DNA of 64,000 nucleotides from assembly GCA_945890485.1 (NCBI GenBank), contig CAMDCN010000004.1, forward strand, positions 186,001 through 250,000. Reading direction: 5' to 3'. The position numbers and the translations under genes are program-made. Numbering within the stretch: position 1 is the first letter of the stretch; every line of letters begins with the position of its first letter. A model generated the notes under the pieces. That model was not told the DNA's origin, did no database searches, and was given only the letters and a program-made list of their open reading frames with translations. The DNA is from Candidatus Sulfopaludibacter sp. SbA3 (GTDB lineage Bacteria; Acidobacteriota; Terriglobia; Bryobacterales; Bryobacteraceae). Below are positions 15,684-28,508 of the stretch, in pieces.

Positions 15684-16607
15684 ATGCTCACGAGACGCTC
15701 CGCGTTAACTCTGCCGTTCGCCGGTCGGTTGCTCGCGTCGCCCCGTGCCGCCCAGAGTGTGTTTCGCCTGGAAGATCGGTTGCCGCCGGACTATCAGGGC
15801 TTCGCCGTGACCCATGCGATGGAGGTGACGCCACACGGTCTGTGGTTCCTGATCAGTCCTCCCCGGACGCTGAACCCGCCGCAGGCGCTTCTGCTGACCG
15901 ATTTTGACGGCACGCGCAAGGCCTTTGCGCCACTCCCGAAGCAGGTCGAGCCGCACGGGCTCCAAGTAGACTCCGCCGGCAATGTCTATGCTTGGAAGGT
16001 TTTTCTGTCCCCCAACGTCAGCCGATCTGAAATCTATCAACTCTCCCCTCAATTGGAGCTCACCCGCTCGACGTCGGTGGAAGAGCAAATCATCGGAATC
16101 GTCCTGAACAACGACCGACTGATGCGGATCGGGAAATCGGCGATCACGGACGTCCGCTCCGGCGAAACGGCCGTCCCATTCGACACCTCCGCCTTCGGAT
16201 ACGGAAGCGCCTGCACAACGTCCAGCGGCAAAGCGATGTTCCAAATGCAGGGCCCCCAACCGCAAGTGACGCTGGTCGACTTTGCTGCCGCTCAAGTCCG
16301 CACTATGCGGCTGGAAGCGCCGGAACTTGGCAAGGGCGGTAGGCCGTTTCTGGACGCTGCGTTGGGTAGCGACGAGCAAATAGCGGTCGTCGCCTCTCGC
16401 CAGAAGGCTGCCCTGGGGGCCCTGGTGCTTAGGTTCAATCTGGACGGGGAGCTACTCACACGTACCCGGTATGCGCTCCCGCAACGCACCGAAGATGCAA
16501 TCGCTGACAATCCGGAAGGCTTTCTGTTTCCTGGCCTGATCCGGCGTTACAACAATCTGCTGTATCTCGCTGATCGGGCGGGTCAGGTCTGCCGATATGC
16601 CTCGTAA
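15684..16607 (+). CDS. Exported protein of unknown function with a beta-propeller-like pattern
   Basis: The 307-aa protein has a leader with a twin-arginine feel (MLTRRSALTLPFAGRLLASP). It then has repeated Trp/Tyr/Asp-containing beta segments (VEPHGLQVDSAGNVYAWKVF; LLYLADRAGQVCRYAS at the end) that look like NHL/six-blade propeller strands. No enzymatic motif is recognised. It follows the preceding secreted protein after 19 nt with an excellent ribosome-binding site, so both are likely co-transcribed. Confidence 0.65.
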   Translation: MLTRRSALTLPFAGRLLASPRAAQSVFRLEDRLPPDYQGFAVTHAMEVTPHGLWFLISPPRTLNPPQALLLTDFDGTRKAFAPLPKQVEPHGLQVDSAGNVYAWKVFLSPNVSRSEIYQLSPQLELTRSTSVEEQIIGIVLNNDRLMRIGKSAITDVRSGETAVPFDTSAFGYGSACTTSSGKAMFQMQGPQPQVTLVDFAAAQVRTMRLEAPELGKGGRPFLDAALGSDEQIAVVASRQKAALGALVLRFNLDGELLTRTRYALPQRTEDAIADNPEGFLFPGLIRRYNNLLYLADRAGQVCRYAS

Positions 16608-16665
16608 GCCCGGCAACGCAACTGGTATCGTTAGGTTAAAGCGCATCCACCATAGAGCCATCGTC

Positions 16666-18120
16666 ATGAAATCCTTCGCTCTCCTCCTCCTCTGCCTCCC
16701 TCTCGCCGCGCAGCCACCCCAGCGTGACCTGAAGTTCGAAGCGCCCAAAAAGCTCGCTCTCGTCATTGGCAACAGCGCCTATCCCAAATGGCCTCTTCGT
16801 AATCCTTCCAACGACGCCCGCGCCGTCTCGCAAGCCCTTACTGAAGTCGGATTTGCCACGACGACGGCCCTCGATGTCAGCCTTCCCAATCTTGATCGCA
16901 CCGTCTCCACCTTTGTCACCAAAGTCAGGCAGGGCGACGTCGTAGCCTTTTATTACGCCGGCCACGGGATCCAACTGGAAGGCGAGAACTATCTGGTCCC
17001 CGTTGATTTCGACGCCAAGGACGAAGTCGACGCCAAGTACGCTGCCTATGCGGCCTCCCGTATCCAGGAACGCATTGAAAAGGCTGGCGCCCGCGTCACT
17101 CTCGTTGTACTCGACGCCTGTCGCAACAACCCCTTCGCCGCCAGCCGCACCGTTGGGGGTGGACTCGCCGCCATGGGCACCGGCAAAGGCACGCTGATCG
17201 CGTTCGCCACCGCCCCCGGCAAGACCGCTGACGACAATCCCAAAGGCAACAACGGCCTCTTTACGACGCATCTGATCACCGCGCTGAAAGAACCGGGCCT
17301 TACGCTTGACCAAGTCTTCAACCGGGTCCGCGAACGCGTCCACAACGCCTCCGGCGGCCGTCAGGTCCCCTGGACCGTATCGAGCGTCATCGGCGACGTC
17401 TATCTCCGCCCCGGCGCCGCCGGGGCAGCGCCCGCCCAGCCGGCCCAACCCGCCGCCGAACCCGTTGCCGTCGCGCCGCCCCCGGTGCAGAATCCGTTGT
17501 CCCGCATCATGGCCAACTCGGTAGCGCCTAACAACACCGCCCCAGCTCCGGCCCCCCGCCAGAACATCCCCGATATCGCCGCCGGCAACGCCGCCTACCA
17601 ACGTGGCGACACCCAGCAGGCCGCCACCATTGCGCAGGCGATACTCCGCCTCGAACCCAATCATCGAGACGCTCTGCTGCTGCTCTCCTACGTCCACTTC
17701 CGGAATCAACGCTGGGAGTTGTTCGTTCCTACCTCTGTCCAGGCCCTCCGCGCGGGAGCCACGCTTCCATTCAGTCTTGGGCACCACCACACGCTGACCG
17801 GCGCCCACGCAGCCAGCCTCACTGTATCCCGCAACCAAATTCAGTTTCAAAACACCGGCGGGAACTGCAGCAGCAAGAATCTGACGGCTCCCTTCTCCAG
17901 CCTCCAGTCCGCCCAGCCCACCACGAGCAACCAGGGCGTTCCGTTTCTGAACCTGAAAATCACCGACGAGAAAGGCAAGGTTCAAAACTTCAATTTCGTC
18001 GACCCCACAACGCAGGTCCGGGCCAACCCGGATGGCCTGCCAATTCTCGTCAGCCCGCCCCGTGCCCCGCAATTCGTCCAAGCCATTGCGGCGATCTTGA
18101 ATCAGGCGAGACAGCAGTAG
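16666..18120 (+). CDS. Secreted caspase-like (peptidase C14) protein with C-terminal TPR-like region
   Basis: The 484-aa protein has a short Sec signal (MKSFALLLLCLPLAAQ). A caspase-fold domain follows to about residue 250: KLALVIGNSAYPKWPLRNP at the start, VVAFYYAGHGIQ with the catalytic His, and LVVLDACRNNPF with the catalytic Cys. Both dyad residues are intact. A Pro/Ala-rich linker follows (about 255-320), then a TPR-like pair (NAAYQRGDTQQAATIAQAIL; LEPNHRDALLLLSYVHF) and an unassigned C-terminal domain. Bacterial caspase homologues cleave after Arg/Lys or Asp depending on subgroup; the substrate is unknown. The 16597 start would put the ATG inside the previous gene and mask the signal peptide, so 16666 is preferred. 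Confidence 0.85.
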   Translation: MKSFALLLLCLPLAAQPPQRDLKFEAPKKLALVIGNSAYPKWPLRNPSNDARAVSQALTEVGFATTTALDVSLPNLDRTVSTFVTKVRQGDVVAFYYAGHGIQLEGENYLVPVDFDAKDEVDAKYAAYAASRIQERIEKAGARVTLVVLDACRNNPFAASRTVGGGLAAMGTGKGTLIAFATAPGKTADDNPKGNNGLFTTHLITALKEPGLTLDQVFNRVRERVHNASGGRQVPWTVSSVIGDVYLRPGAAGAAPAQPAQPAAEPVAVAPPPVQNPLSRIMANSVAPNNTAPAPAPRQNIPDIAAGNAAYQRGDTQQAATIAQAILRLEPNHRDALLLLSYVHFRNQRWELFVPTSVQALRAGATLPFSLGHHHTLTGAHAASLTVSRNQIQFQNTGGNCSSKNLTAPFSSLQSAQPTTSNQGVPFLNLKITDEKGKVQNFNFVDPTTQVRANPDGLPILVSPPRAPQFVQAIAAILNQARQQ

Positions 18121-18136
18121 CGAAGTTTGCTATTCT
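18108..18136 (+). promoter_or_regulatory. Candidate promoter of the histidine operon
   Basis: GAGACA (18108-18113) and TATTCT (18131-18136) are separated by 17 nt and match four and five of six consensus positions of a housekeeping promoter. The -35 overlaps the end of the caspase gene. The predicted start site falls within a few bases of the hisL ATG at 18145, and no Shine-Dalgarno precedes it, so the leader peptide mRNA may be leaderless. Confidence 0.5.
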
Positions 18137-18144
18137 ACGAATTC

Positions 18145-18213
18145 ATGCGTTTCACGCACCACAGCCTGCATCCTCACCATAGCCATACGGCGCATGGGCA
18201 GGCTGGGCTGTAG
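18145..18213 (+). CDS. hisL: his operon leader peptide HisL (7 His in 22 residues)
   Basis: A 22-codon ORF (ATG at 18145, TAG at 18211-18213) has His at codons 5, 6, 9, 11, 12, 14 and 17. It begins MRFTHHSLHPHH. It lies directly upstream of a terminator hairpin and hisI. Such a density of His codons is diagnostic of a ribosome-mediated attenuation leader: slow translation under histidine starvation stalls the ribosome on the His codons. It is too short for ordinary gene calls. The next three features describe the RNA helices it controls. Confidence 0.9.
   Translation: MRFTHHSLHPHHSHTAHGQAGL
18162..18205 (+). promoter_or_regulatory. his attenuator, pause/protector helix (1:2)
   Basis: CAGCCTGC (18162-18169) is perfectly complementary to GCAGGCTG (18198-18205), giving an 8-bp stem. 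Its 5' arm lies over leader codons 6-9 and its loop contains the remaining His codons. A ribosome stalled on the His codons would cover the 5' arm and release the 3' arm. Confidence 0.75.
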
Positions 18214-18260
18214 CTTCGAGATTCTCTCTCCAAAAGCTTCGATGACTTCCTCACCAGCCC
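18201..18260 (+). promoter_or_regulatory. his attenuator, antiterminator helix (2:3)
   Basis: GGGCTG (18205-18210) can pair with CAGCCC (18255-18260), or in a shifted register GGCTGG (18201-18206) with CCAGCC (18254-18259). Either uses the 3' arm of helix 1:2 and the 5' arm of the terminator, so the three helices are mutually exclusive, as required for attenuation. Confidence 0.7.
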
Positions 18261-18283
18261 GCCGCGAAAACGGCGGGCTTTTT
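18256..18283 (+). terminator. his attenuator, intrinsic terminator (3:4)
   Basis: AGCCCGCCG (18256-18264) pairs with CGGCGGGCT (18271-18279) across the six-base loop CGAAAA, giving a perfect 9-bp GC-rich stem followed by a T-run. The terminator ends 4 nt before the hisI ATG, so the hairpin may also shield hisI translation initiation. Confidence 0.92.
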
Positions 18284-18287
18284 ATTT

Positions 18288-18662
18288 ATGGACCTAGACT
18301 TTAAAAAATCGGACGGCCTCGTTACCGCCGTCATCCAGCACTACGAAACCAAGCGGATTCTCATGGTCGGCTACATGAACGAGGAATCGTTCCGCCTCAC
18401 CGTCGAGAGAGGCTACGCCATTTTCTTCTCCCGCAGCCGCCAGAAACTCTGGCTCAAGGGCGAATCCTCCGGCCATAAACTCCTCGTCAAGTCCATCCAG
18501 ACCGACTGCGACAAAGACGCCGTGCTCGTCCTCGTCGATCCTGTCGGCCCCGGCGTCTGCCACGAAGGCTACGAAAGCTGCTTCTTCCGCACGCTGACCG
18601 ACGGCGAATGGCAAGTCACCGAAAACCAAACCTACGATCCGAAGGCTGTCTATGACAAGTAA
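18288..18662 (+). CDS. hisI: Phosphoribosyl-AMP cyclohydrolase HisI
   Basis: The 124-aa stand-alone cyclohydrolase opens the adenine ring of PR-AMP (third step of histidine synthesis). Family signatures include [37 protein letters not shown] and the metal-binding [11 protein letters not shown] and [15 protein letters not shown] regions with their Cys residues. There is no C-terminal HisE (PR-ATP pyrophosphatase) domain. No ribosome-binding site is obvious between the attenuator hairpin and the ATG. It overlaps hisG by 11 nt. Confidence 0.96.
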
Positions 18663-19530
18663 CAAGCTCAAACTCGGCATCCCCAAAGGGAGCCTCGAAA
18701 ACGCAACCATCGACCTGTTCCGCCGCGCCGGCTTCAATATCTCGGTTTCGAGCCGCAGTTACTTTCCGTCCATCGACGATCCCGAAATCGAGTGCATGCT
18801 CATCCGCGCGCAGGAGATGGCGCGCTATGTGGAAGATGGAATCCTCGACGCCGGCCTGACGGGCCTCGACTGGGTGAAGGAATCGGAAGCCGATGTCGAA
18901 ACGGTGGCCGACCTGATCTATTCGAAAGCCAGCTTCGGCAAGGTACGCTGGGTCCTCGCGGTACCCGAGTCCTCACCCGTGCAATCGGTGAAGGATCTCG
19001 AAGGCAAGATCATCGCGACCGAACTCGTCCAGTTCACGAAGAACTATCTGAAGGCCAACGGCGTGACAGCCAAGGTCGAGTTCTCCTGGGGCGCGACGGA
19101 GGTGAAGCCTCCCGTGTTGGCCGACGCCATCGTCGAAGTGACTGAAACCGGCTCCTCGCTGCGAGCGAACAAACTCCGCATCGTCGAAGAGCTGATGAGC
19201 TCGAATACCCAGCTCATCGCCAACAAGACCTCCTGGGCCAACTCCTGGAAGAATCAGAAGCTCTCCGACATCCGCGTCCTCCTCGACGGCGCCATCGCCG
19301 CCCTCGGCAAGGTCGGCCTGATGCTCAACGTTCGCCGCGCCGACCTCGAAAAAGTACTGGCCACGCTCCCAGCGCTGAAGAACCCGACCATCTCGCAGCT
19401 CAGCGACTCGGAGTGGGTCGCCGTCAATACGATTCTTGACGAGATCACTGTGCGCAACCTGATTCCCCGGCTTAAAGCCGCCGGCGCGCAGGGGATTGTC
19501 GAGTACCCATTGAATAAGATCGTGATGTAA
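18652..19530 (+). CDS. hisG: ATP phosphoribosyltransferase HisG (long form)
   Basis: The 292-aa enzyme joins ATP and PRPP in the committed step. [20 protein letters not shown] opens the periplasmic-binding-protein-like fold; [10 protein letters not shown] and [17 protein letters not shown] are family motifs. The length of about 290 residues and a C-terminal ferredoxin-like segment (after about residue 215) mark the hexameric long form that is feedback-inhibited by histidine and needs no HisZ. The start overlaps the end of hisI. Confidence 0.96.
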
Positions 19531-19541
19531 GGCGGACCGAA

Positions 19542-20786
19542 ATGATCAAAATAGTCGACGCGGGTCAAGTTACTAAGATACTGTCGCGGAAAGCGGCAAA
19601 GCTTGGCGAAGCGGAAGCCATCGTCAAGCCCATGCTCGAAGCCGTGAAGAAGCGCGGCGACGCGGCCGTCCTCGAATACGCCCGGCACTTCGATAAGCTT
19701 GAGCGGAAGTCACTTCGGGTAGCGGAGGACGAACTGTCGACCGCCGCCGCCGGTCTTTCGTCCGAGTTCAAGGCGGCTGTTAAAACAGCGTCGGCCAACA
19801 TTCGCGCCTACGCCAAACTCCAGCTTCCCGTCGCCAAATCCGTCACCGTCTCCCCCGGCCTAAAGCTCGGGCAGATTGTCCGTCCGCTCGATACGGTCGC
19901 TGCCTACATCCCCGCCGGCCGCTATCCCCTGCCCTCCACGCTGCTGATGACCGTCATCCCGGCCCAGGTCGCCGGGGTGCCAAACATCTGCATCACCACA
20001 CCCCGCGTCGTACCCGAAATCTTCGGCACGGCGTCGCTGTTGAAAGTCCCCAACGTGTTCCAGATCGGCGGCGCACAGGCCATCGCGGCATTCGCCTACG
20101 GCACCAAAACCATCCCCCGTGCCGATCGCATCGTCGGCCCCGGCAACATCTACGTCGCCGCTGCGAAGAAGCTGCTGGCGGGCGAAGTTGGCATCGACTT
20201 TATCGCCGGACCCACGGAGATTCTGATGATTGCCGAAGACGGTAACCCCGCATGGATCGCCGCCGACATGCTGGCCCAGGCCGAGCACGATACCGACGCT
20301 TCGGCCGTGCTGCTCACGACGTCGAAACTGCTCGCTCTCGCTGTGCAAAGCGAAATCGAAAAGCAGTTGGAGACGCTGCTCACTTCGAAGACAGCCCGCG
20401 TCGCGATCGACAAGAACTCCGCCATCATTCTCATAGAGTCCGTCGACCAAGCCATCGAAGTCGCCAACCGGTTTGCCCCGGAACATCTCTCCATCCCGTC
20501 GGCCTCGTGGCTGAAGCAGATCCGCCACGCCGGCAGCGTCTTCATCGGGCCGCACAGCCCCGAAGCCGCGGGCGATTATGCCAGCGGGCCGAATCATGTT
20601 CTGCCGACGAGCGGCGCTGCCCGTCTGCGTGGCGGCCTCTCCGCGGCTGACTATGTCAAAGTGATCTCGACCCAGGAGCTGAGCGCCTCCGCGCTCAAGA
20701 AGCTCACCCCTTCCGTTACCACTCTTGCCCGCGCCGAGGGCCTTGAAGCCCACGCCCGCTCCGTGGAGGTCCGCAGTGCCAAGTAG
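19542..20786 (+). CDS. hisD: Histidinol dehydrogenase HisD
   Basis: The 414-aa zinc enzyme oxidises L-histidinol to L-histidine in two NAD-dependent steps. Visible motifs are YIPAGRYPLPSTLLMTVIPA, the GPGNIYVAAAKKLL and AGPTEILMIAEDGN stretches, and the C-terminal SGPNHVLPTSGAARLRGGLS region with active-site His residues. It begins 11 nt after hisG and overlaps hisC by 11 nt. Confidence 0.97.
   Translation: MIKIVDAGQVTKILSRKAAKLGEAEAIVKPMLEAVKKRGDAAVLEYARHFDKLERKSLRVAEDELSTAAAGLSSEFKAAVKTASANIRAYAKLQLPVAKSVTVSPGLKLGQIVRPLDTVAAYIPAGRYPLPSTLLMTVIPAQVAGVPNICITTPRVVPEIFGTASLLKVPNVFQIGGAQAIAAFAYGTKTIPRADRIVGPGNIYVAAAKKLLAGEVGIDFIAGPTEILMIAEDGNPAWIAADMLAQAEHDTDASAVLLTTSKLLALAVQSEIEKQLETLLTSKTARVAIDKNSAIILIESVDQAIEVANRFAPEHLSIPSASWLKQIRHAGSVFIGPHSPEAAGDYASGPNHVLPTSGAARLRGGLSAADYVKVISTQELSASALKKLTPSVTTLARAEGLEAHARSVEVRSAK
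20764..20768 (+). promoter_or_regulatory. Ribosome-binding site deciding the hisC start
   Basis: GGAGG lies 7 nt before the GTG at 20776, inside the end of hisD. It supports GTG 20776 over the upstream in-frame ATG at 20725. Confidence 0.7.
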
Positions 20787-21846
20787 TCCGAAGCTCCGAC
20801 CGCGGCCAGCGGTCGAAAAGATGGCGCCGTACCATCCGCCCACCGGCGGCCGAGGCGACAAGCTGCGCCTGGATTTCAACGAAAACACCATCGGCTGCTC
20901 GGAACAGGTAACCCAGTTCCTCGTCGAGCACTTAGTCGAAAACGATCTCGCCGTTTACCCGGAATACAACGAGGCCCGCAAGGAACTCGCCGCGTATTTC
21001 AAGGTCGGCGAGAACGAGTTCGCCCTCACCAACGGCACCGACGAGGCCATTCAGGTTCTCATCAACACGTATGTCGATGACGACGACGAAGTGCTGATCC
21101 TGAAGCCGGCCTACGCGATGTATAAGTTCTACGCCGAGGTAGCCGGGGCCCAGGTTCGGGAGATCTCATACCGGCCCGGCACACTGGCCTTCCCCCTGCA
21201 GGAGCTCCTCGGCGCCATCCAGCCGACGACGAAAGCCATCCTGATTTCGAACCCGAACAACCCCACCGGCACGGGCGTCGATCTCGATGGTGTCGTCCGC
21301 ATCCTGAAACGCGCGCCGCACGCCGCCGTCCTCATCGACGAAGCCTACTACGAGTTTTCCGGCGTAACCGCGCTGGGCATGCTGAAGGATTACCCCAACC
21401 TTTTCGTCTCCCGGACGTTCTCCAAGGTCTACGGGATGGCCGCCCTCCGCATCGGTTGCCTGTTCACACAGGCCGCCAACGTCGATTGGCTTCGCAAAGC
21501 GCAAAGCCCCTACTCGGTCAACTCGCTCGCCGTACTCGCCGCCCGCGCGGCCATCCGCGATCCGCAGTTCATTGAACGCTACGTCGGCGAAGTCCTTGCT
21601 GCTCGTGAGCTGCTCTACGTCGGCCTCGAAAAACTCAATATTCCGTACATCAAGAGTCAGGGAAACTTCGTCCTGACCCAGATGGGCGACCGCGCCATCG
21701 AAATCCGCGATGGCCTGCGCGACCGCGGCGTCCTGGTGCGCGACCGTAGCTATGAGATCCCCGGTTGCGTCCGCATCACCGTCGGCACCCGCCCGCAAAT
21801 GCGCATCTTACTCAAGGAGTTGGAAGATCTGTGGCGCAAGAAATGA
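20776..21846 (+). CDS. hisC: Histidinol-phosphate aminotransferase HisC
   Basis: The 356-aa fold-type I PLP enzyme converts imidazole-acetol phosphate to histidinol phosphate with glutamate. Motifs: RLDFNENTIG near the N-terminus, SNPNNPTGTGVDL, DEAYYEFSG, and SRTFSKVYGMAALRIG with the PLP-binding Lys. The GTG start is chosen from its Shine-Dalgarno and overlaps hisD. The stop overlaps the start region of the HAD gene. Confidence 0.95.
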   Translation: MPSSPKLRPRPAVEKMAPYHPPTGGRGDKLRLDFNENTIGCSEQVTQFLVEHLVENDLAVYPEYNEARKELAAYFKVGENEFALTNGTDEAIQVLINTYVDDDDEVLILKPAYAMYKFYAEVAGAQVREISYRPGTLAFPLQELLGAIQPTTKAILISNPNNPTGTGVDLDGVVRILKRAPHAAVLIDEAYYEFSGVTALGMLKDYPNLFVSRTFSKVYGMAALRIGCLFTQAANVDWLRKAQSPYSVNSLAVLAARAAIRDPQFIERYVGEVLAARELLYVGLEKLNIPYIKSQGNFVLTQMGDRAIEIRDGLRDRGVLVRDRSYEIPGCVRITVGTRPQMRILLKELEDLWRKK

Positions 21847-22496
21847 TCATTTTTGACATGGACGGCGTGCTCGTCGATGTCACCGAATCCTACCGCGAAA
21901 CCATCGTACGTACGGTGCAGCACTTCACCGGCCAGACCATCGAGCGCAGCCTGATTCAGCAGTATAAGAACGCCGGCGGCTGGAACAACGATTGGCAGCT
22001 TTCGCAGAAAATCGCGGCCGATCTCGGTGTCGCCATCGACTATCCCGTCGTTGTCGAGCACTTTCAAAAGATCTTCTTCGGCGATGGCGACGGCGGGCTG
22101 ATGGCGCGCGAACAATGGATCGCCCGACCCGGCATCCTTGAAAGCCTTGCCACTCGTTACGCGTTTTCGATCTTCACCGGCCGCGAACGCGCCGAAGCGC
22201 AGATGACGCTGGACCGCTTCGCCCAAGGTCTTACCTTCGCCCCCATCGTCGGCGCCGACGACGTGCAGTACGGCAAGCCGGATCCAGAAGGCATGCTGCA
22301 AATCATGGCGTCTTTCCCTGGCCACGGTTTCGTCTACATCGGGGACACTGTTGACGACGCCCGCAGCGCGAAGCTCGCTGGGGTGCCGTTCATCGGCATT
22401 GGCCACGGCGACACGGGCGCGCTGCTCCTTACAGAAGGAGCCCAAGCCCTCATCCCCAGTATTAATGACCTTGAAGGAGCTCTGGCCACCCTATGA
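21831..22496 (+). CDS. HAD-superfamily phosphatase, candidate histidinol-phosphate phosphatase
   Basis: The 221-aa subfamily IA HAD hydrolase has all four motifs: FDMDGVLVD (I), FTGR (II), YGKPDPEG with the catalytic Lys (III) and [16 protein letters not shown] (IV). A helical cap lies between I and II. It resembles the TIGR01548-type HAD group. It sits between hisC and hisB with overlaps on both sides, exactly where the dephosphorylation of histidinol phosphate needs an enzyme, and no HisN or bifunctional HisB is present. That function is inferred from position. GTG 21831 has upstream GGAAG/AAGGAG; ATG 21843 (ATGA overlap with hisC) is an alternative start. Confidence 0.85.
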
Positions 22497-23095
22497 GAAC
22501 CGCCACCGTTGAGCGCATCACCAAAGAAACTCAGATTCGCGGAAAACTGAAGATTGAAGGCAAGGGCCGCTACCAGATCTCCACCGGCATCCGGTTCTTC
22601 GACCACATGTTGGAGCTGTTTACCAAGCACGGCGGCTTCGACCTGGAACTCACTGCGACGGGCGACCTCGACGTCGACCAACACCATACGGTGGAAGACG
22701 TTGGCATCGCGCTCGGGCAGTTGTTCGCCCAGGCTCTCGGAGACCGCAAAGGGATCAACCGGGCCGGCTACTTCGTGATGCCGATGGATGAGACGCTCTC
22801 GGTCGTCGCCATTGATCTTGGCGGCCGCCCCGCGCTCGTCTACACCGACTTAGTGAAGGTCCGCCTGGTCGGCGACTTACAGACGGAGTTAGTCCACGAC
22901 TTCTTCGATGGCTTTGCCGTCCATGCCGGCGCCAACGTCCATTGCAAGGTGCTCTATGGCCGCAGCAACCATCACAAGCTCGAAAGCATCTTTAAGTGCT
23001 TCGCCCGCGCCATGAAGTTCGCGACGTCGAAAGACGCCCGCCTTAAGGACCAGCTCCCTTCCACGAAGGGACTCCTCGAAGGAACCAAAGCATGA
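22493..23095 (+). CDS. hisB: Imidazoleglycerol-phosphate dehydratase HisB
   Basis: The 200-aa monofunctional dehydratase converts IGP to imidazole-acetol phosphate. Paired metal-binding motifs HHTVEDVG (about residue 62) and HHKLESIFK (about residue 160) are intact, and the start [16 protein letters not shown] is typical. No phosphatase domain is fused, unlike E. coli HisB. ATGA overlaps occur with the HAD gene upstream and hisH downstream. Confidence 0.97.
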
Positions 23096-23691
23096 GCAAA
23101 GTAGTCGTCTTCGACTATGGCGCCGGCAATCTCCGCAGCGTCCTGAACACCCTCGGCGCCATTGGAGCGCAGTATGAGCTGGTCGACGACGCCGAAGGCC
23201 TCGCCTCCGCCGAGAAGATCATCCTCCCCGGGGTGGGCCATTTTGGGCAGATGGTTCGGACGTTGGACGCGATGCGTGTGCGCAAGCCGCTGCTGATGCG
23301 GATCGCCGATGGCGTTCCCTTCCTCGGCATCTGCCTGGGTCTGCAGGCGCTGTTTGAGGAAAGTGAAGAGGCGCCGGATCTGCAGGGCCTCGGCCTGTTC
23401 GCCGGCAAGGTGAAGCGCTTCCCGGATGACGCCCGCGTGCCCCACATGGGCTGGAACGAACTGGAGGTGAAGGCCGGTTCCCGCCTCCTCCGCAATCTCC
23501 CCGAGCGGCCCTATCTCTACTTCGCGCATAGTTACTATGTGCCCGCCCATGAGTACGCCGCGGCCACCTGTATCTACTCAGAACCCTTCACCGCCGTCCT
23601 CGAGCATGAGAACGTTTACGGCGTCCAGTTCCACCCTGAAAAATCCGGAGCCCTGGGGTTACAAATTGTTAAAAACTTCGTGGACCTTTGA
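23092..23691 (+). CDS. hisH: Imidazole glycerol phosphate synthase, glutaminase subunit HisH
   Basis: The 199-aa class I glutamine amidotransferase supplies ammonia to HisF. The nucleophile lies in [17 protein letters not shown] and the catalytic His/Glu in [21 protein letters not shown]-type residues open the protein. It overlaps hisB by ATGA and ends 4 nt before hisF. Confidence 0.96.
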
Positions 23692-23695
23692 TACC

Positions 23696-24460
23696 ATGCT
23701 GGCCAAACGCATCATCCCCTGTCTCGACGTCACCGCCGGCCGGGTCGTCAAGGGCATCAACTTCGTCAACCTCAAGGACGCTGGCGACCCTGTCGAACTC
23801 TCCGAGCGCTATAACGCGCAGGGCGCCGATGAGCTCGTCTTCCTCGACATCACGGCCTCCTCAGACGAGCGCAACACCATGGTTGACGTCGTCGCCCGCA
23901 CCGCGCAGAAGGTCTTCATTCCGCTGACGGTTGGCGGGGGCATCCGCTCTGTCGTCGATGCACGAAAGAACCTGATGGCCGGTGCCGATAAGGTCAGCGT
24001 CAACACGGCCGCCGTCCGCAACCCGAACCTGATTACCCTGCTGTCGAATGAGTTCGGCGCTCAAGCCGTTGTGCTGGCGATCGACGCCCGCCGCCGCCCC
24101 GGCGGTGGATGGAACGTCTTCACGAAAGGCGGCCGCGTCGATGAAGGCATCGACGCCGTGGCTTGGGCCGCGAAAGGTATGGAGCTCGGCGCGGGCGAAA
24201 TCCTGCTGACGTCCATGGATACCGACGGCGTGCAGGACGGCTTCGACTGCGAACTCACCGCAGCCGTTTCCCGCGCAACGCGCATCCCCGTCATCGCCAG
24301 CGGCGGCGCCGGGAAGCCCGAACATTTCTTGAAAGTTTTGACCGAAGGAGAGGCCGACGCCGCTCTCGCCGCTAGTATCTTCCACTTTGGCACTTACACC
24401 GTCGACGACCTCAAAGAGTTTCTCGACAAGCGCGGCATTGTCGTCCGGAGAACCAAGTGA
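23696..24460 (+). CDS. hisF: Imidazole glycerol phosphate synthase, cyclase subunit HisF
   Basis: The 254-aa TIM barrel begins [20 protein letters not shown]. The catalytic Asp residues lie in the CLDV and [14 protein letters not shown] segments, and two phosphate-binding loops ([15 protein letters not shown]) are present. With HisH it makes IGP and AICAR from PRFAR and glutamine. The ATG at 23696 is preferred over an upstream extension inside hisH. It overlaps hisA as GTGA. Confidence 0.97.
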
Positions 24461-25158
24461 TTCTACCCTGCATTGACCTCATGGACGGCAAGGTCGTCCA
24501 ACTCGTCCAAGGAAAAGAGAAGGCCCTCGAAGGGGACGCCCCAGAGATTATGCTCCAGAAGTTCGCGGGCTTCCCGGAGATCCAGGTTATCGACCTCGAT
24601 GCCGCACTCGGCAAAGGCGAAAACGATGCAATCGTCGAAGCCCTGTGCGCGAAGGCCCGCTGCCGCGTCGGCGGCGGCGTCCGCACGCCGGAGCGCGCCG
24701 AGAAGCTCGTTGAGCAGGGCGCCCACCGGGTGATCGTCGGCACCTCCGCTTTCCGCGCGGACGGCCCCAACCATGCGCTGCTTTCTGAGATCGTCGCCGC
24801 CGTCGGCCCGGAAAAAATCCTGATCGCCATGGATTCCAAGGGCGGCAAGATCACCGTCAAGGGCTGGACGGAGTCCATTAACTTCACCGCCGAAGAGTTA
24901 GTGACTCAACTGGAACCGTACTGCAGCGGCTTCCTCTGCACTTATGTTGATAAAGAGGGCATGATGCAAGGCACGGACCTCGATTGGTTCCGCCGCCTTC
25001 GCACGGCCATGAGCCCTTCGCACGAACTGACGGCCGCGGGCGGCGTCACGACGCTAGACGACGTCCGCGCCCTGCAATCCATGAACGTCCACGCCGCTCT
25101 CGGCATGGCCATCTATACCGGTCGCCTCTCGCTCGACGACCTCCGCAAAATGCTCTAG
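24457..25158 (+). CDS. hisA: Phosphoribosylformimino-5-aminoimidazole carboxamide ribotide isomerase HisA
   Basis: The 233-aa TIM-barrel isomerase (ProFAR to PRFAR) begins at a GTG that overlaps the hisF stop. Signatures are [20 protein letters not shown] with the first catalytic Asp, [19 protein letters not shown], and a second-half [19 protein letters not shown] phosphate loop. It is slightly divergent in the middle of the barrel compared with proteobacterial HisA. Confidence 0.93.
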
Positions 25159-25167
25159 GAATCAAAA

Positions 25168-26472
25168 ATGTCTTCCCGCCTCGTCTGCTTCAACTCCGCC
25201 TGCCGCGCCGAATACGCCTCTACCGAAGTCCTCTACGCCTGCACGAAGTGCGGCGGCCTGCTCGAAGCCAAAATCGACTATGACCGCGCCGCCGCCGCCG
25301 GCTGGAAGAAGCTTTGGCGCGAACGCCGCATGTCGAACGCTCCGCTTGATGCTTCGGGCGTGTGGCGCTACCGCGAGATGCTCGACCTGTTTGACGGTTT
25401 CGAACACGTCGTTACGCTGCGCGAAGGCAACACCCCGTTGCTGCCGGGCGCGAAGGCCGCGGCGTACGCCGGGCTCGATCACGTCGTCTTCAAGCACCAG
25501 GGCTTCAACCCCACCGGCAGCTTTAAGGACAACGGCATGACCTGCGGCGCCACGCAGGCCAAGCGCCTTGGCCTGAAGCGCGTTGCGTGCGTCTCCACCG
25601 GCAACACGTCGGCCTCCATGGCGGCCTACGCCGCCACCTCCGGCCTCGATCCCATCATCTTCATCCCCAACGGCAACATCGCTTTCGGCAAGCTCTCCCA
25701 GGCGCTCGACTATGGCGCGAAGACGCTGCAGGTGGAAGCCAACTTCGATCAGATTCTCGCCCTCGTCCGCGTCCTCGCCGACCGGCTCGGCATCTATCTG
25801 CTGAATTCGGTCAACCCCTTCCGAATCGAAGGCCAGAAGTCGATTGTCATTGAAATGCTCGATCAGCGCGATTGGAAGGTCCCGGATTGGATCGTGCTTC
25901 CCGGCGGGAACCTGGGCAACGTCAGCGCGTTTGGCAAGGGCCTTCGCGAGTTACTGGACTTAGGCCTGATCGACAAACTGCCCCGCCTCGCGGTCGTCCA
26001 GGCCGCGGGCTCGGCGCCGTTTTACGATTACGTCCGCCAGGATGACAAGGCGCACTTCCCTACGGTGAAGAAGCCGGAGACCCTGGCGACGGCCATCAAG
26101 ATCGGCGACCCGGTCAGCTACCCCAAGGCGCTCCTCGAGATCGAGACTTCGGGCGGCTCGGTGGAACGCGCGTCCGAGCAGGAGATCGCCGACGCCAAAG
26201 CCATCATCGGCGCTTGCGGTATCGGCTGCGAGCCAGCCTCCGCCGCCACGCTCGCCGGGATCAAGAAGCTCGTGGCCGCCGGCACGATGCGGGCGGACGC
26301 GGACGTCGTGGCCGTCCTGACGGGCAACGTCCTGAAGGACCCCGACTACATCTACCACTATCACACCGGCGTCCTGAAGGGCCCGCATGGCGAGCCCATC
26401 ACGTCCACCTTCGGCAACAAGCCCACGGTCGTTCCCAACGACCCGGACGCGATTGCCGCCCTGCTCGGTTAG
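25168..26472 (+). CDS. thrC: Threonine synthase
   Basis: The 434-aa PLP enzyme makes threonine from O-phosphohomoserine. It has an N-terminal zinc-ribbon-like segment with four Cys (CFNSACRAEYAS; LYACTKCGGLL). The PLP Lys is in GFNPTGSFKDNGMTCGA and the phosphate-binding loop in STGNTSASMAAYAA. It starts 9 nt after hisA with AGGAA upstream, so it looks like the last gene of the histidine operon. Its stop overlaps the convergent M28 peptidase stop by 4 nt. Confidence 0.93.
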   Translation: MSSRLVCFNSACRAEYASTEVLYACTKCGGLLEAKIDYDRAAAAGWKKLWRERRMSNAPLDASGVWRYREMLDLFDGFEHVVTLREGNTPLLPGAKAAAYAGLDHVVFKHQGFNPTGSFKDNGMTCGATQAKRLGLKRVACVSTGNTSASMAAYAATSGLDPIIFIPNGNIAFGKLSQALDYGAKTLQVEANFDQILALVRVLADRLGIYLLNSVNPFRIEGQKSIVIEMLDQRDWKVPDWIVLPGGNLGNVSAFGKGLRELLDLGLIDKLPRLAVVQAAGSAPFYDYVRQDDKAHFPTVKKPETLATAIKIGDPVSYPKALLEIETSGGSVERASEQEIADAKAIIGACGIGCEPASAATLAGIKKLVAAGTMRADADVVAVLTGNVLKDPDYIYHYHTGVLKGPHGEPITSTFGNKPTVVPNDPDAIAALLG

Positions 26473-28508
26473 TGCTTCAACTTCGCCGCCGCCGCGGTAA
26501 TGGCGGCGGCGTAATTCTCCATCACCTGCGCGAAGACTTTCGCCTGCGCCACGGCCTGCGCTCGCTGGCCGAGCTCTAAGCTTTCCCGCACCCCAGCGAT
26601 TGTCTTGGCGCCGTAACCCGTATATTGCCCCGGCGCGGAAACCGAGTTCTTGTACCACGGCCGTCCCGGTAACCCGTCCGGCAGCAGGAGCGCCCGCTCG
26701 GTCAAATAAACCTCCCGGGTGCCGCTCTTCGCCCCGGCGTATTCGGTTTCGAAGCGCTTCGCCGCGGCATCTAACTTGTCGAGGCTCGCCAAGACATTGG
26801 GCAGCCCGACGTTCTTATCCGCCGCTAACTTATCCACTTCGCCCCAGTACTTACGAATCGTCGCGGCCGCGCGGGTGAACTCAAACGGCACAATCGACGC
26901 CTCGCTCATGCGCACCATCGACATCGCGGCCACCTGCGCCAGCGCTTTTCCGTACACGAACTCCCCGTCGGAAAACCGCTTGTACCAAGCGAAGGAATCA
27001 AAGATAGAGTGGTAGACGCCGCCCCCGCCCGAAGCGGCGCTCGAAAAGCCGAAGTTCACCCCCGCGATCCCCGCGTGGTGAACGAACCCAACGTAGTCCG
27101 ACCCCGAACCGAGCGGCCCCGGCTGAAACGGTTTCTGGACTTTCAACATATGATTCAGCACACTGTCGCCCGTCACCGGATCCTTCGCGTCCCGGGAAAC
27201 CTGCTCTAGGAACAAGTTCAACGACGGCGTGGCGCCAAGCCCCAACACGCCCTTTCCGTTCGTGTCGCTATTGAAGTAGGCCACCGCCTTTTCCTTCAAC
27301 TCCGGCAGGTGTTTCTCCACCCACTCGGTCGATCCAATCAGCCCGAATTCCTCGGCATCCCACAGGGCGAACACGATCGTCCGCTGCGGACGCCAGCCGG
27401 TCTTGTACATCTCACCGAACGCTCGCGCCGTTTCGAGTACCGCCGCCGTGCCGGAGATTGGGTCGTTGGCGCCGTTCACCCACGCATCATGATGGTTCCC
27501 GTACAACACCCACTCGTCCGGATATACGCTGCCGCGAATCGTGGCGATCACGTTGTGCACCGGCCGGGTGCCCCAGTCGTGGGTCAACTTCAGCCGTACC
27601 GGCGTCGCGCCCGGGCCCAGCTTATACGTAATTGGCAAGGCCCCGCGCCAGTTCTCCGGCCCCAGCGGCCCGCCCAATGCTTCGAGGAGCGGCTTGGCGT
27701 CGCCATAGGAGATCGGCATCACCGGGATCGGCATCAGCGTCTTCGACTCTTTCAACGTCAGCCGCTTCGCCCCGCCCGGCTCCGACGCGAACCCCGGCGA
27801 CAGCGGGTCGCCGACGTGGATCGACATATCCATCACGCTGCCCCGTTGCACCCCGTACTCACAGCGATAGGCGCCGGCGGGATACACGTCGCCGCGGAAG
27901 TACCCATCGTCCTTTGGGTCGGAGTAGATCAGGCACGCCAAGGCGCCATTTTCGGCCGCCACCTTTGGCTTCACGCCGCGCCAGGACTGGCCATACCGGG
28001 CGATCACGATCTTCCCGCGAACGTCCACGCCCTGCTTCTTCAGATACTCGTAGTCCTCCGGCACGCCGTAGTTGACATAGACCAGCGGCGCGGTAACATC
28101 GCCATCCGCCGAGTAAGCATTGTAAGTCGGCAGTTGATTCTTGTCGGTCGAGTCCGGATCCTCGGCAAAGTTCGGCTCGGACAGCCGGGCCGTGAACTTG
28201 CCCATGCTCAGCACGCGGTCTTTCGGATAGGGCAGCAGCGCCTCAAACGTCTCGATCTTAGCTTCCAGACCCGCCGCGCGCAGTTGGCTGAGGGCGTACT
28301 CCGCCACCTTCCGCGACGCCGGCGACCCGGCATGGTGCGGTTCGCTCGCCATGGCCTTCATGTGCGCTTCAATGCGGCGCGCATCGGGCAGCGCCAGCAG
28401 CTTCGCCTCCAAGGCCCGCTGTTTCGCGGCCGCCTCCTCGGAGAAACCGCGAATCGGCCCCTGCGCGAACGCAGCGGCGGCAAACAGCAAAGCTAGGGTT
28501 AGTTTCAT
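26469..28508 (-). CDS. Secreted M28 zinc carboxypeptidase (glutamate carboxypeptidase II-like)
   Basis: The 679-aa exported protein (signal MKLTLALLFAAAAFAQG) has the PSMA/GCPII layout: an M28 domain split by a PA domain (LVYVNYGVPEDYEYLKKQ), then a transferrin-receptor-like dimerisation domain near the C-terminus. Zinc-ligand segments are NHHDAWVNGANDPISGTA, WDAEEFGLIGSTEWVEKH, NSDTNGKG and YHSIFDSFAW. It probably trims C-terminal residues from peptides in the periplasm or outside. The start overlaps the dsbD stop. Confidence 0.88.
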   Translation of the reverse strand: MKLTLALLFAAAAFAQGPIRGFSEEAAAKQRALEAKLLALPDARRIEAHMKAMASEPHHAGSPASRKVAEYALSQLRAAGLEAKIETFEALLPYPKDRVLSMGKFTARLSEPNFAEDPDSTDKNQLPTYNAYSADGDVTAPLVYVNYGVPEDYEYLKKQGVDVRGKIVIARYGQSWRGVKPKVAAENGALACLIYSDPKDDGYFRGDVYPAGAYRCEYGVQRGSVMDMSIHVGDPLSPGFASEPGGAKRLTLKESKTLMPIPVMPISYGDAKPLLEALGGPLGPENWRGALPITYKLGPGATPVRLKLTHDWGTRPVHNVIATIRGSVYPDEWVLYGNHHDAWVNGANDPISGTAAVLETARAFGEMYKTGWRPQRTIVFALWDAEEFGLIGSTEWVEKHLPELKEKAVAYFNSDTNGKGVLGLGATPSLNLFLEQVSRDAKDPVTGDSVLNHMLKVQKPFQPGPLGSGSDYVGFVHHAGIAGVNFGFSSAASGGGGVYHSIFDSFAWYKRFSDGEFVYGKALAQVAAMSMVRMSEASIVPFEFTRAAATIRKYWGEVDKLAADKNVGLPNVLASLDKLDAAAKRFETEYAGAKSGTREVYLTERALLLPDGLPGRPWYKNSVSAPGQYTGYGAKTIAGVRESLELGQRAQAVAQAKVFAQVMENYAAAITAAAAKLKH

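Follow-up and report, generated by a model that had tools for sequence, protein, structure and literature searches.

The histidine biosynthesis operon of the window, which is the whole 64,000-nucleotide stretch of DNA from the soil bacterium Candidatus Sulfopaludibacter sp. SbA3 that was analysed, is very probably governed by a ribosome-mediated transcription attenuator with a probably leaderless leader gene. This reading draws on a His-rich short ORF, a promoter-like spacing in front of it, mutually exclusive helices behind it and the recurrence of all these parts in related genomes, as seen in sequence and folding computations, from which we infer the start site, the stalling of the ribosome and the response to histidine. 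RNA polymerase would start at the leader ATG or within about 2 nt of it, as judged from the position of the -10-like element, and the transcript would open with the His-rich ORF, on whose 5' AUG the ribosome would load without a Shine-Dalgarno (SD) site. With charged tRNA-His scarce, the ribosome would stall on the early His codons and leave 18197–18206 free, and this segment would pair with 18254–18263 before the 3' arm of the terminator is made, giving read-through into hisI; with histidine ample, the ribosome would reach the stop codon at 18211–18213 and cover 18197–18206, upon which the hairpin at 18256–18279 would form and transcription would end about 140 nt in. The features concerned are as follows.

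18108–18113, plus strand: candidate -35 element GAGACA, 17 nt before the -10 element, proposed from sequence
18128–18136, plus strand: extended -10-like element TGCTATTCT, hexamer at 18131–18136, ending 8 nt before the leader ATG
18145–18213, plus strand: leader peptide ORF MRFTHHSLHPHHSHTAHGQAGL, 22 codons and TAG, seven His codons, probably leaderless
18162–18169, plus strand: candidate pause helix, strand 1 (5') CAGCCTGC, weakly conserved
18197–18206, plus strand: putative antiterminator, 5' arm GGCAGGCTGG
18198–18205, plus strand: candidate pause helix, strand 2 (3') GCAGGCTG, within the antiterminator 5' arm
18254–18263, plus strand: putative antiterminator, 3' arm CCAGCCCGCC, overlapping the terminator 5' arm
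18256–18279, plus strand: intrinsic terminator hairpin AGCCCGCCG-CGAAAA-CGGCGGGCT, 9 bp
18280–18287, plus strand: T tract TTTTATTT, adjoining the hisI ATG
18288–18662, plus strand: hisI, phosphoribosyl-AMP cyclohydrolase, first structural gene (PRK00051.1 above cut-off; PF01502)
18652–19530, plus strand: hisG with HisG C-terminal domain (profile match)
19542–20786, plus strand: hisD (profile match)
20725–21846, plus strand: hisC, start codon uncertain (profile match)
21765–22496, plus strand: HAD-family hydrolase, start uncertain (best match TIGR01548, below its cut-off; Pfam)
22493–23095, plus strand: hisB (profile match)
23092–23691, plus strand: hisH (profile match)
23537–24460, plus strand: hisF, ORF as listed, the HisF match starting at residue 54 (profile match)
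24457–25158, plus strand: hisA (best match TIGR00007, below its cut-off)

The operon runs in the order hisI-hisG-hisD-hisC-HAD-hisB-hisH-hisF-hisA (18288–25158), the gene names being backed by NCBIfam and Pfam, and the HAD-family hydrolase could, as a guess, be a histidinol-phosphate phosphatase. Threonine synthase (thrC, 25168–26472) follows directly after hisA; it may share the his transcript and hence stand under the His attenuator. The gene upstream of the leader (16597–18120) encodes a caspase-domain (Peptidase_C14) protein with TPR repeats.

The 22-codon ORF with seven His codons that the earlier note had described was confirmed at 18145–18213, as was its GC-rich 9-bp terminator with a T-run, which lies between the leader ORF and hisI at 18256–18279 with its tail at 18280–18287. 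This hairpin is the longest and most GC-rich of the eight terminator-like sites in 16500–26800; these sites are not above the number in shuffles (10.1), so that the hairpin alone proves nothing and it is the arrangement as a whole that makes the case. Folding of the 143-nt leader gave -56.4 kcal/mol, a value reached by 0 of 200 shuffles (z -4.96); folded separately, the terminator stretch gave z -2.80 (0 of 200 shuffles as low) and that of the antiterminator z -2.08 (7 of 200). On both strands of the whole window, a His-rich short ORF followed by a terminator was found only at this leader, the second His-rich short ORF (about 210–305) having no terminator after it. The His-rich leader and terminator before hisI are real and more than chance.

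Conservation was assessed in 163 hisI loci, made up of 30 of the 59 matches in 61 same-family genomes, 80 named loci out of 577 relatives, and 53 loci from class and phylum samples, where hisI was found in 113 of 121 and 75 of 119 genomes, respectively; after removal of 14 duplicates and two that were too short, 147 unique usable regions were retained. With a leader ORF taken as a short ORF with at least four His codons and 15% His, the upstream regions of hisI held a His-rich short ORF in 127 cases, a terminator in 119 and both in 114, the loci being partly related and not independent. The leader ORF was present in 27/30 of the same-family loci (L001–L030), 63/67 of the named loci, 19/21 of the class sample and 18/29 of the phylum sample; it was absent by these criteria from 20 of the 147, with two near-misses of three His codons each (L004 and L117). 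Among 40 further, longer regions, six of which re-sample genomes already counted, 21 carry a leader near hisI, starting 131–314 nt before it (three of these without a terminator by the scan), and 19 do not. Comparison of the loci therefore shows the putative attenuator to be widely conserved within Acidobacteriota.

The candidate -10 elements recur as well. The window element reads TGC-TATTCT followed by 8 nt and the ATG, TATTCT being an imperfect -10, and the candidate -35 in close relatives is GAGACA or GCGACA. When the best match to TATAAT of the form TAnnnT was taken in the 60 nt before each leader (often TGnTATACT), the hexamer ended 7–10 nt before the leader start in 108/127 loci, compared with 3.9% of shuffles, and in 0/124 control windows located 100–160 nt upstream; by set, the counts were 25/27 (L001–L030), 56/63 (named), 16/19 (class) and 11/18 (phylum). 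Because this position is kept in so many loci, the leader ORF is probably leaderless. Transcription would be expected to start at 18143–18146, a segment with a single purine, the A of the leader ATG. In the window's own genome, the pattern TGnTATnCT-N7-10-ATG occurs 30 times, compared with six for the reversed pattern, and 23 of the 30 ATGs open at least 80 codons, a count in which ORF length is uncontrolled and some ATGs may be internal; this enrichment of the extended -10 at 7–10 nt before ATG (loci L226–L255) points to leaderless transcripts being common in this genome. Leaderless genes were predicted at 13.3% on average in three Acidobacteria, according to the consulted part of PMC3160421. 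It is improbable that the leader ORF is instead translated from a leadered transcript starting further upstream, with the promoter-like spacing not its start: the imperfect TATTCT would suit such a start, and a consensus promoter scan with a threshold of 9/12 matches does not list the leader promoter (8/12 matches), but the constant -10 position, held in most of the phylum sample too, and the enrichment of such promoters in the same genome argue against it. The lack of an SD-like motif before the leader (0/127 loci, compared with 2.6% in shuffles) is uninformative on this choice and gives no argument for a leaderless start, since chance gives about as much and E. coli hisL has none by the same test.

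The pairing partners were compared in nine close-relative loci, the window included, with HisI 83–100% identical. The antiterminator suggested in the earlier note, GGGCTG (18205–18210) with CAGCCC (18255–18260), is present in its letters but intact only in the window among the nine and broken in all eight relatives, and was rejected in favour of the conserved pairing of 18197–18206 with 18254–18263. In the window, the latter comprises nine pairs plus a single A-C mismatch; it is kept in 9/9 close relatives, with one end pair lost in three and the mismatch turned into G-C in two of the nine. The 8-bp helix of 18162–18169 with 18198–18205, also named there, is present, but it is intact in just 3/9 of these loci (window counted), with 7/8 pairs in the other six. 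Ribosome-free antiterminator pairing reached 0.57 with the natural 5' part and 0.70 with a shuffled one over 114 leaders, a modest suppression. In a 34-row alignment, with rows picked for the antiterminator arm, paired cells amounted to 98.2% for the terminator and 85.9% for the main antiterminator helix; when the partners were slid, pairing fell to 32–50% in the terminator and, for the antiterminator structure taken whole, from 75.8% to 35–47%. Compensatory changes in this alignment were hardly above column shuffles and covariation was weak, and the helices are thus favoured by conserved complementarity and not by strong covariation. Of the two signs of conservation in relatives that the earlier note had named as a test, the His-codon enrichment was found in 127/147 loci, and the covariation was weak.

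The switch was assessed by folding as the probability that the terminator 5' arm is paired upstream before its 3' arm exists, with the ribosome footprint taken as 13 nt. Over 114 leaders, the median antiterminator pairing probability was 0.78 at the best His stall versus 0.15 with the ribosome at the stop codon, and the E. coli his control gave 0.58 and 0.06, respectively. The pairing falls by at least 0.3 in 105/114 leaders and by less than 0.3 in 9/114; in the folding of L043 and L045, the assigned terminator is not formed even with the ribosome at the stop. When the DNA between a stall at the middle His codon and the terminator was shuffled (30 shuffles per leader, 114 leaders), the mean pairing was 0.76 for real and 0.53 for shuffled leaders and the switch amplitude 0.56 and 0.15; 62/114 leaders were matched by at most 3/30 shuffles, and the window leader, matched by 4/30, was not outstanding. 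The arm-to-arm duplex energy was reached by at most 5/100 shuffles in 51/114 leaders and by at most one in 23. In the window, pairing values were 0.78–0.85 with the ribosome at His codons 5 to 14, 0.44 at codon 17 and 0.28 at the stop; codon 17 is unlikely to be a control codon, because none of the eight close relatives has His there. As computed, the antiterminator excludes the terminator and depends on the position of the ribosome. Three mutually exclusive helices had been claimed for this leader, of which the opposition of terminator and antiterminator holds in folding, while the pause helix is weak and the antiterminator has changed register. With ORF and terminator together in 114/147 loci and folding that depends on ribosome position, a ribosome-mediated his attenuator, as originally proposed, is the best reading.

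There is little likelihood that attenuation acts mainly on translation, with the hairpin hiding the hisI start region instead of or besides ending transcription. The T tract adjoins the hisI ATG in the window and an SD-like motif precedes only 18/127 hisI genes, which would fit hiding of this kind, but an intrinsic terminator requires just such a GC-rich stem with a T tract after it, and the distance from the end of the stem to hisI varies between 3 and 95 nt across relatives, a range that a start-hiding hairpin would tolerate poorly. No SD-like motif was seen before hisI in window positions 18271–18288, where its ATG abuts the T tract. That the hairpin is the terminator of the caspase-domain gene and the His ORF a chance frame is very improbable, for although this gene ends only about 135 nt before the hairpin and terminator-like sites of this stretch are no commoner than in shuffles, it was met only in close relatives among the loci searched, so that the terminator is not simply its own, the ORF and terminator recur before hisI in 114/147 loci, and a promoter-like element stands between gene and hairpin.

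The transcription attenuator proposed here resembles known systems in part. An Rfam scan of the window gave no T-box or other leader family at gathering score. Neither His_leader (which we take to be the enterobacterial family RF00514) nor the T-box leader (presumably RF00230) was among the 13 matches obtained at E up to 10 in 18000–18420. The weak matches to other families obtained at this relaxed threshold, the strongest scoring 20.4 bits where the cut-off is 50 and Trp_leader scoring 15.3 bits, mostly overlap the terminator and were rejected as chance. The earlier note had left the choice between wide conservation and independent origin; the conservation is wide within Acidobacteriota, and shared descent with the enterobacterial his leader is unsupported, given the missing His_leader match. 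E. coli hisL (NC_000913.3, L165) is similar in having a His-rich leader ORF before the his operon, a terminator and a competing antiterminator, and its folding test goes the same way. It differs in carrying seven His codons in a row, whereas the His codons here are spread; in an antiterminator that is fully suppressed in ribosome-free folding (0.01), compared with the modest effect over the 114 leaders; in an operon that begins with hisG and not hisI; and in having no -10-like hexamer near the ATG (the best match in 60 nt lies 54 nt away), whereas the ORF here looks leaderless. The consulted passages of PMC9413887 describe His attenuators in Firmicutes (Bacillus cereus group, Peptostreptococcaceae and Erysipelotrichales) that are alike in having a His leader peptide, terminator and antiterminator before his genes, but which belong to another phylum and have three to five consecutive His codons; a leaderless start is not mentioned in those passages. 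Leader ORFs at the transcript 5' end, according to the portions consulted, are described before an amino-acid gene for trpL in S. meliloti (PMC7298713) and for leuL, trpL, ilvL, metL and thrL in S. lividans (PMC8079986); these concern other amino acids and phyla, and their 5' ends come from transcript data, whereas the 5' end here is deduced. A 2010 paper, in the part consulted, gave leader peptide systems as known only in Proteobacteria, Actinobacteria and, newly, Firmicutes (PMC2965389). In the literature searched (titles, abstract starts and passages), no his attenuator was reported in Acidobacteriota, the likeliest prior surveys, Lopatovskaya et al. 2010 and Vitreschak et al. 2004, lying outside that scope. 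Both His attenuators and leaderless leader peptides have precedents, and their combination is new within the literature searched; it suggests that ribosome loading in a his attenuator can take place at the very first codon to be transcribed.

Similar leaders before hisI were also observed in other phyla, in Chthoniobacterales (L084, L090 and L093), Fimbriimonadaceae (L103 and L108) and Acidimicrobiia (Ferrithrix and Acidimicrobiaceae; L099, L101, L105 and L109), so that some Verrucomicrobiota, Armatimonadota and Actinomycetota hold a Bryobacteraceae-type hisI-hisG together with a His leader. Samples were drawn from the class of the L093 genome, the phylum of the L103 genome and the class of the L105 genome, using the best 30 of 51, 48 and 38 matching genomes; leaders, counted only where they precede hisI, occurred in 1, 1 and 2 of 30 loci, one in each sample being the starting genome. 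Beyond these, the leader was found in 0, 0 and 1 of 29, the single case (L317) having a hisI like that of L105. In a HisG tree of 62 rows, built by a quick method with SH-aLRT support only, all ten non-acidobacterial leader rows fall inside the Bryobacteraceae fork (97), and the well-supported branches force at least three changes. In the HisI tree, the nine sampled rows again group in this region, less strongly supported (90), and the region also takes in L162 and L215 of another acidobacterial family on a long branch, with L105 set apart. Binning error is unlikely for Fimbriimonadaceae, whose two loci are on long contigs, L108 on one of 2.76 Mb titled chromosome and L103 on one of 2.83 Mb; contamination is possible in the remaining recipient cases, which are all MAG contigs. 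Horizontal transfer of the operon with its attenuator is the simplest reading and a probable one, and its direction is deduced from the nesting of the recipients inside Bryobacteraceae. A leaderless start in the recipients is borne out only in part, with a -10-like hexamer 7–10 nt before the start in 4/9 leaders. It can be proposed tentatively, at slightly under even confidence, that the leaderless his attenuator is old in Acidobacteriota and forms a portable cassette, which travelled together with hisI-hisG on at least three occasions, to Chthoniobacterales, Fimbriimonadaceae and Acidimicrobiia, and has stayed functional in these hosts; its requirements, limited to a 5' AUG, a ribosome and an intrinsic terminator and including no host-specific protein, would explain this, and the low share of recipients with the hexamer in place lowers this reading. 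The distribution suggests that an attenuator can move between phyla along with its operon, and such a transfer would offer a natural way of testing the extent to which transcription-translation coupling is conserved.

Scans away from hisI and of other operons gave the background of the search. The reverse strands of the 40 longer regions had no His ORF with a terminator, and the forward strands away from hisI had three more His-rich ORFs (L172, L177 and L202), of which that of L202, 4.6 kb from hisI, has a weak terminator-like site taken as chance; these three are the false-positive level of the scan. In other Acidobacteriota, two further His ORFs were located far from hisI, about 6.5 and 7.4 kb upstream of it, that of L215 without a terminator by the scan and that of L219 with one. 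Attenuation in general was tried at trpE, where, in 19 loci, a Trp-rich ORF followed by a terminator-like site amounted to one GTG frame without a -10. The Terriglobia families f3, f7 and f8 (L189–L199) had no leader near hisI in 11 regions reaching up to about 6 kb upstream (one about 1 kb), and none in six longer upstream stretches, where one His-rich ORF without a terminator was seen (L206). These families have a different hisI type, as if their his operon had been replaced. Apparent losses of the leader were observed in three of the loci: in L010 and L062, the terminator core lies 24 nt after the -10-like element and leaves no room for a leader ORF, whereas L041 lacks the leader and has a broken T tract; all three look like natural losses.
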